Assembly (NCBI RefSeq): GCF_000332315.1
Contig: NZ_KB235941.1
Location: 879,202-943,201, forward strand
Length of the DNA: 64,000 nt
Direction of reading: 5' to 3'
Source: Prochlorothrix hollandica PCC 9006 = CALU 1027
GTDB taxonomy: Bacteria; Cyanobacteriota; Cyanobacteriia; Prochlorotrichales; Prochlorotrichaceae
A program made the position numbers and the translations under genes. This document shows positions 19,773 through 63,912 of the stretch, piece by piece; within the stretch, counting starts at the first letter, position 1; every line of letters starts with the position of its first letter. Under the pieces are notes generated by a model that did no database searches, was not told the DNA's origin, and saw nothing but the letters and a program-made list of their open reading frames with translations.

Positions 19773-19945
19773 AGAGTCTAAGAGTCTAAGAGTCTAAGAG
19801 TCTAAGAGTCTACAGCAGTCCTAAATGGGTCGTGTGGTGTGCCCCCGGAGAGGGCACACCACGCCAAGGGTTTCAGCCGTCGAGATCCTTACAACTGATT
19901 TAGGGTTGCTGTAAGAGTCTAAGAGTCTAAGAGTCTAAGAGTCTT
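19773..19945. repeat. AGAGTCTA tandem array split by an inserted element
   Basis: Five perfect 8-bp units (19773-19812) and four more (19914-19945), the last with one change, flank the inserted element. Removing the element and one TA joins the two halves in perfect phase. Confidence 0.95.
19811..19913. mobile_element. Roughly 100-bp non-autonomous element with TA target duplication, copy 1
   Basis: A 99-bp unit starting CAGCAGTCCTAAAT and ending ATTTAGGGTTGCTG (imperfect inverted termini) is bounded by TA on both sides. An inner hairpin pairs GTGTGGTGTGCCC with GGGCACACCAC. TA duplication and small size fit a MITE mobilised by an IS630/Tc1-mariner-type transposase, which is not in this window. 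Other copies: 24289, 35009 and 63815. Confidence 0.85.
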
Positions 19946-24288: not shown

Positions 24289-24391
24289 TACAGCAGTCCG
24301 AGATAGGTTGTGTGGTGTTTGCCCTCCAGGCACACATCACACAAAGGGTTTCAGCAACCGAGATCCTTACGACTGATTTAGGATTGCTGTA
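24289..24391. mobile_element. Roughly 100-bp TA-flanked element, copy 2
   Basis: TA, then CAGCAGTCCGAGATAGGTTG to GGATTGCTG, then TA. It is diverged from the other copies in the inner hairpin. It ends 21 bp before the start codon of the O-antigen-ligase-like gene, so it forms most of that gene's leader. Confidence 0.85.
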
Positions 24392-35008: not shown

Positions 35009-35111
35009 TACAGCAGTCCTAAATGGGTCGTGTGGTGTGCCCCCTCCGGGGGCACACCACACCAAGGGTTTCAGCCATCGAGATCCTTACAACTGATTTA
35101 GGAGTGCTGTA
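35009..35111. mobile_element. Roughly 100-bp TA-flanked element, copy 3
   Basis: Near-identical to the copy at 19811: CAGCAGTCCTAAATGGGTCG at the left, GGAGTGCTG at the right, TA on both sides, with the inner palindrome GTGTGCCCCC/GGGGGCACAC. It interrupts a short ATCATGCAT repeat: ATCATGCA-TA on the left, TA-TCACAATCATGCAT on the right. Confidence 0.88.
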
Positions 35112-44753: not shown

Positions 44754-44953
44754 GGGCGCGGGAACCATGCTCCTACCGGGTTTTGGTCGGTGTAGGGGTC
44801 AGGTTTCCTGACCCTGCGGGGTGAACTTTCCGAGAGTTTTACTCAAATAATGCTGTTTGGGGATGGAGATCGCTAGCATCTGTTGGCCTGGGTCGTGATG
44901 CCTAATCACATTGGCTGGATCCTGTTGAACGTTGTTCAGTCCTGGATGGGATT

Positions 44954-45132
44954 GTCGAGTTGTACTCGACCCAAAGCCGACTACAAGTCGGCTCTCCCAG
45001 GGGGATGGTCGAGTTGTACTCGACCCAAAGCCGACTACAAGTCGGCTCTCCCAGGAGGATTGTCGAGTTGTACTCGACCCAAAGCCGACTACAAGTCGGC
45101 TCTCCCAGGGGGATTGTCGAGTTGTACTCGAC
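44954..45132. repeat. Tandem dual-hairpin array, locus 2 (54-bp units)
   Basis: GTCGAGTTGTACTCGAC hairpins start at 44954, 45008, 45062 and 45116, exactly 54 bp apart; the first three are followed by AGCCGACTACAAGTCGGCT. Same hairpins as locus 1 (1951), but with a shorter linker and CCCAAAG instead of CCCGAAG. Free of variable spacers, so not CRISPR. Confidence 0.92.
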
Positions 45133-46429: not shown

Positions 46430-46473
46430 GAGAGTTTCACTCCAATAATGTCGAGTACAACTCGACAATCCCC
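46430..46473 (-). repeat. 44-bp perfect inverted repeat, right arm
   Basis: Exact reverse complement of 45109-45152. The two arms enclose the ZnuC-like gene and its operator, about 1.28 kb between arms. Confidence 0.95.
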
Positions 46474-46580
46474 TTTAATGTCGAGTACAACTCGACAATC
46501 CCCTTGGGAGACTCGACAATCCCCCTGGGAGAGCCGACTTGTAGTCGGCTTAGGGTCGAGTACAACTCGACAATCCCATC
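46448..46580 (-). repeat. Dual-hairpin repeats, locus 3 (reverse orientation)
   Basis: GTCGAGTACAACTCGAC hairpins at 46450, about 46484 and 46555, with one AGCCGACTTGTAGTCGGCT between the last two. A rearranged, partly deleted relative of loci 1 and 2. Confidence 0.85.
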
Positions 46581-63814: not shown

Positions 63815-63912
63815 TATAGCAATCCTAAATCAGTTGTAGGCATCTCTATGGCTGAAACCCTTGGTGTGCCCCCGCAGGGGGCACACCACACGACCCATTT
63901 CGGACTGCTGTA
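63815..63912. mobile_element. Roughly 100-bp TA-flanked element, copy 4 (reverse orientation)
   Basis: TA, then TAGCAATCCTAAATCAG, an inner palindrome GTGTGCCCCC/GGGGGCACAC, ACGACCCATTTCGGACTGCTG, then TA. The inverse of the copy at 35009. It lies upstream of the ABC exporter gene. Confidence 0.85.

Follow-up and report, generated by a model that had tools for sequence, protein, structure and literature searches.

A 99-bp MITE family with IS630-type ends in Prochlorothrix hollandica and the two orientations of its palindrome loop

ISY100 (ISTcSa) of Synechocystis PCC 6803 is an IS630/Tc1-mariner element with 24-bp imperfect ends which duplicates TA. It inserts at TA, and besides the transposase about 24-30 bp at either end suffice (PMC2170065). 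Mini-transposons reduced to the ends retain full activity, as a MITE would require, and in this respect the cyanobacterial ISY100 resembles the system described here, by description and not letter for letter (PMC2170065). MITEs have been reported in several cyanobacteria: Anabaena sp. 90 contains 147, for which the parent IS was not recognised (PMC3542288); Microcystis harbours a 187-bp MITE linked to ISL3, with 8-bp duplications (PMC11448079); and Nezha is a further cyanobacterial MITE as cited in PMC10969869, here likened by description. For ERIC in Photorhabdus, 711 copies are reported (PMC10969869).

A second set of precedents concerns the loops of hairpins. Minute inversions at hairpin loops occur in chloroplast DNA, e.g. 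at trnH-psbA (PMC2903610), and template switching between arms is known to invert spacers (PMC8604942). A proposal also exists that RNA hairpins arise and are maintained through template switching; loop inversions, the clearest mark of the process, were rare in a survey of rRNA (69 events), and its authors connect this rarity with loop conservation (PMC8794818).

The element analyzed here in Prochlorothrix hollandica resembles the MITEs of Anabaena sp. 90 and Microcystis as well as Nezha: it is short, non-coding, bounded by terminal inverted repeats, able to form stem-loops, present in many copies and mostly intergenic. It differs from the Anabaena sp. 90 elements in that its parent family is identified, and from the Microcystis element in its link to IS630 and its TA duplication. 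Its extrapolated copy number (about 500) exceeds those of both, and is below that of ERIC. We consider it, with a probability of about 95%, to be a MITE, i.e. a non-autonomous DNA transposon that relies in trans on a transposase of IS630/Tc1-mariner type from an element in the same genome. As such it is an ordinary kind of element, a fresh family of a known type. With many MITE copies, the IS630 partner and the empty sites all in one genome, it makes a clean and well-documented transposon case. A separate observation, the behaviour of the loop in its central palindrome, matters more. As in chloroplast minute inversions and template-switch loop inversions, a loop between inverted-repeat arms has been turned recurrently, here between GGA and TCC. 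Such events are rare in the rRNA survey, whereas here orientation is fully randomised over 143 copies of one element in one genome.

The 99-bp element and its copies

The window, i.e. the whole stretch of 64,000 nucleotides that was analyzed, contains an array of the 8-bp unit AGAGTCTA interrupted by a 99-bp element without coding capacity (19813-19911, + strand); the length, position and sequence given in the earlier note were recovered unchanged. The left half of the array (19773-19812, five units, no strand assigned) ends in the target TA at 19811-19812. The right half (19912-19944, likewise without strand) starts with a second TA at 19912-19913 and comprises three full units and part of another; as had been noted, the phase of the array is regained when the element and one TA are removed. 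No further AGAGTCTA array was found in 2.06 Mb of the genome. The element begins with CAGCAGTCC and ends with GGGTTGCTG, and matches the family profile over positions 1-99 with 108 bits. Its left end CAGCAGTCCTAAATGGGTCGT (19813-19833, +) agrees with that of the IS630 element at 20 of 21 positions, and its right end, read inward as CAGCAACCCTAAATCAGTTGTAAGG (19887-19911, -), has CAGTTGTAAGG in common with the right end of that element. Between the ends lies a palindrome (19832-19864, +), with arms at 19832-19846 and 19850-19864 and a 3-nt loop at 19847-19849. The loop is GGA in this copy, and 2 of the 15 positions of the right arm deviate from a perfect palindrome.

Four full copies and one solo end had been claimed for the window, and the same number was found, with full copies starting at 19813, 24291 and 35011 on the + strand and at 63817 on the - strand, and the solo end at 478. 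The second copy (24291-24389, +) is more diverged and has TA on both sides; the third (35011-35109, +, loop TCC) is located within a 15-bp array (CAATCATGCATATCA); the fourth (63817-63910, -), also bordered by TA on both sides, is 94 bp long. The solo end (CAGCAATCCTAAATCAGTTG, 478-497, +) has TA on its outer side, and the remainder of the element is absent. A 14-mer end motif (up to 2 mismatches) occurs 13 times in the window against 1.4 expected, a number reached by 0 of 100 shuffles. Over the whole genome (5.65 Mb, 13 contigs) TA followed by the end motif is present 1,104 times at up to 1 mismatch and 1,248 times at up to 2, while the reversed pattern gives 0-7 matches.

Full copies were counted with a profile built from 48 distinct copies and searched in 2.06 Mb, i.e. 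contig C1 and part of contig C9. This search gave 184 full copies, which extrapolates to about 500 in the 5.65 Mb genome. The length is 99 bp in 156 of the 184; the element contains no transposase gene, and its terminal inverted repeats are CAGCARYCCTAAAT at either end. For only 6 of the 184 do both flanks fall within a long open frame, although such frames make up about 79% of the sequence: the copies are almost all intergenic. Some are inserted into a second repeat family, and one lies inside another copy of the MITE itself (C9:974340). The same family was present in none of the named genomes by pattern scan and protein scan of contigs, and a search of a plasmid collection gave no match to it.

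Target-site duplication and target choice

TA is present on both sides of 177 of the 184 full copies (2.06 Mb), and the profile does not model the flanks. The flanks show a palindromic preference, with A/C before TA and T/G after TA. The earlier note had held that the array at 19773-19944 proves both the boundaries of the element and the TA duplication. The array alone is no proof of 2 bp, because with a period of 8 bp duplications of 2, 10 and 18 bp all restore the phase; the TA duplication itself stood, on empty sites in unique sequence and on arrays of other periods. For the empty sites, whose search had been proposed beforehand, the flanks of every copy were joined and searched, giving 17 usable sites in unique sequence. 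At 14 of these the best fit is a duplication of exactly 2 bp, and 10 bp is the best fit at none; at the remaining 3 the junction carries indels or lies next to another copy. Twelve copies are located in tandem arrays, with periods of 8, 11, 13, 14, 15, 16 and 17 bp, and in each of them the phase is regained when the array is rejoined at a single TA. Since seven different periods behave in this way, 2 bp is the sole short duplication which fits all 12. Insertion of the MITE is thus shown to duplicate exactly TA.

These results also bear on the reading in which the array was extended to either side of an element already inserted, or in which the element is itself a unit of the array, so that the locus would say nothing of insertion. 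Tandem arrays of 8-17 bp are indeed common in the genome, but the same 99-bp unit is found in hundreds of unrelated flanks, and filled and empty copies of unrelated repeats were matched. We regard this reading as extremely improbable: it is refuted for the family, and expansion of the array at the 19773-19944 locus alone is possible. Arrays as a preferred target were considered and rejected, with 12 of 177 copies (6.8%) in arrays against 6.7% of intergenic TA sites.

The IS630-type partner element

An IS630-type transposase with the same termini had been predicted, and four elements of this kind were found in the same genome. They have inverted ends of about 20-30 bp (CAGCAGTCCCAAATGGGTCGT...CCTTACAACTGACTTGTGACTGCTG) placed exactly between TA dinucleotides, and these ends are identical in all four copies checked. 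The two copies free of gaps are 1,173 bp long and 98.9% identical; the remaining two are interrupted by 100-N assembly gaps, one of them also carrying a frameshift. The transposase frame is open in 3 of the 4 copies checked, in one of the three across a gap of N. The intact frame encodes 376 aa and matches NCBIfam NF033545 (165.4 bits, cut-off 100) and Pfam DDE_3 (61 bits, above cut-off); no solved structure was found for it by sequence. Assembly gaps obscure part of at least two more copies. A candidate at C1:1441230, examined as an internally deleted IS that would be an intermediate on the way to a MITE, is really a copy of the IS with a 100-N assembly gap. At L032 442-2052 the IS630 element is so inserted that the frame of the upstream gene runs on into that of the transposase, and the fused frame has 536 aa.

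The MITE and the IS630 element have in common the left end CAGCAGTCCyAAATGGGTCGT (20 of 21 positions match) and, in the right end read inward, CAGTTGTAAGG, with the same asymmetry between the two ends; their interiors are unrelated. Relatives in other genomes of the class (46-57% identity) are about 1.1 to 1.3 kb long, with ends like TATAGCARYCCTAAAT. Two other genomes of the class carry MITE families of their own with TATAGCARYCCTAAAT ends (G015 contig 1 and G051 contig 1). That of G051 follows the same plan, i.e. an end, a long palindrome with a 3-nt loop and an end, whereas both families differ from the present one in their internal sequence and palindrome; in G015 the palindrome is short and the loop, by eye, mostly in one orientation. 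The common ends, these relatives and genomes with their own MITEs, and the fact that ISY100 needs only ends and transposase give good support to the present transposase as the one that probably moves the MITE. The right ends differ, however (CAGCAACCCTAAAT in the MITE, CAGCAGTCACAAGT in the IS), and, the ends not being identical, the present IS630 element may be a cousin of the one that amplified the family. By analogy with ISY100 biochemistry, the transposase would bind the ends of about 21-25 bp and excise the element through double-strand cuts; the 3' ends would be joined to staggered positions at TA, preferably with A/C before and T/G after, and gap repair would duplicate the TA. Copies persist mainly between genes.

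Another way to read the ends is that an element of 101 bp (the 99 bp plus TA) was inserted beside a TA without duplication, in the manner of IS200/IS605-type elements or REP/RAYT. At a single site a duplicated TA and a carried TA are indeed indistinguishable. However, inverted repeats form the two ends and TA closes each of them, the flank preference (A/C-TA-T/G) is palindromic at both sides, and the IS with the same ends encodes a transposase of the IS630 family, which is known to duplicate TA. REP/RAYT and IS200/IS605-type elements are without inverted terminal repeats and without target duplication, and the MITE has both. We therefore judge the 101-bp reading very improbable.

Loop orientation in the central palindrome

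The consensus palindrome of the MITE consists of 15-bp arms (GTGTGGTGTGCCCCC) around a 3-nt loop at MITE positions 35-37. Among the 156 copies of 99 bp (C1 and C9), 72 have a GGA loop and 71 the reverse complement, TCC. Orientation of the loop shows an r2 of at most 0.03 with every other variable site, whereas these sites are linked to one another with r2 up to 0.91, including pairs which span the loop. Of 156 pairs of copies without a difference outside the loop, 50% are discordant in the loop. On a tree built without the loop, its state has to change 38 times; with shuffled labels the mean is 41, and 12 of 100 shuffles come out as low. On the same tree four other sites require 8-18 changes, where shuffled labels give means of 27-37 and 0 of 100 come out as low. 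The lack of linkage, the discordance of 50% and a number of changes near that of shuffled labels indicate that the loop alone is inverted, and its inversion far outpaces base substitution. In the one segmental duplication whose flanks are identical the loops agree (GGA/GGA), which says little on flipping.

An artefact of assembly is unlikely, because the loop is unlinked to sites 16 bp away, which any read or k-mer keeps in phase. A second argument comes from another, unrelated palindromic family of the genome, with 16-bp arms, which also has both loops (26 GGA, 17 TCC): in 45 pairs of its copies differing at one position at most there is no loop disagreement, so that near-identical copies all hold one loop. 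A third is that both loop forms are also present in the related MITE of G051 (20-bp arms; GAA 6, TTC 4, AAA 2 and TTT 1 in a sample of 16 copies). The youngest copies of the MITE are already mixed for the loop, those of the second family uniform.

The inversion is probably due to template switching of the polymerase between the arms during replication, by which the palindrome would be inverted repeatedly at its 3-nt loop. Families with arms of 8-11 bp are mostly in a single orientation (e.g. 54:0, 15:0, 12:0), with one 8-bp family at 6:2; long arms accompany flipping, which fits template switching between arms. We think it rather likely that the loop inverts in place, and so fast that its orientation is at a 1:1 equilibrium without memory of history, even among copies identical at the other 96 positions. 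Flipping may instead occur during transposition, or the mixture of loops may stem from two source copies and gene conversion. If flipping in place is true, the 500 or so copies serve as a natural assay for template switching at a palindrome within a bacterial chromosome, on a loop that is neutral and escapes the RNA selection by which such events are masked in rRNA genes. A neutral loop in hundreds of copies would give a direct measure of the frequency of palindrome inversion in bacteria and of its dependence on arm length, and the same system would indicate how far paired stem changes arise without RNA selection.

The stem bears on a further reading, in which the element would owe its persistence chiefly to a role as functional RNA or regulatory hairpin rather than to mobility. 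Its fold is better than that of shuffled sequences (z -4.1), and there are changes on both sides of the stem, e.g. C-G to G-C at MITE positions 31/41. Template switching also produces paired stem changes, however, and the two-sided change at 31/41 could come from it rather than from RNA selection. Moreover, loop orientation is random, unlike a conserved RNA loop; Rfam gave no family match, the sole hit being a chance one below threshold and outside the element; and the hundreds of copies are in unrelated contexts with the end structure of a transposon. Maintenance as a functional RNA or hairpin is accordingly considered quite unlikely, and we retain the MITE interpretation. At the 31/41 stem pair, 93 copies have C-G and 47 G-C, with few intermediates.

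The second palindromic family was matched in 55 copies (2.06 Mb), for example at C1:211521 and at 182150 of the C9 part (GTATCAACTTAAGC CGGGACAGTGGGGCGC GGA ...). Its ends are of the form GGGTATC..., with target duplications, estimated by eye, of about 8 bp or more. A partial ORF in L034 (2187-2639), beside an IS630 copy, resembles by eye an ISL3 transposase; on the basis of this ORF the second family is possibly an ISL3-type MITE. The AGCCGACT family has a short-arm loop without flips (54:0). Dispersed tandem and palindromic repeats of the types GTCGAGTTGTACTCGAC and AGCCGACTACAAGTCGGCT are frequent, in the window at 1961-2300, 44948-45132 and 46446-46505, and elsewhere. Palindromes GCGATCGC, whose abundance is a known habit of cyanobacteria, number 42 in the window against 0.5 expected.
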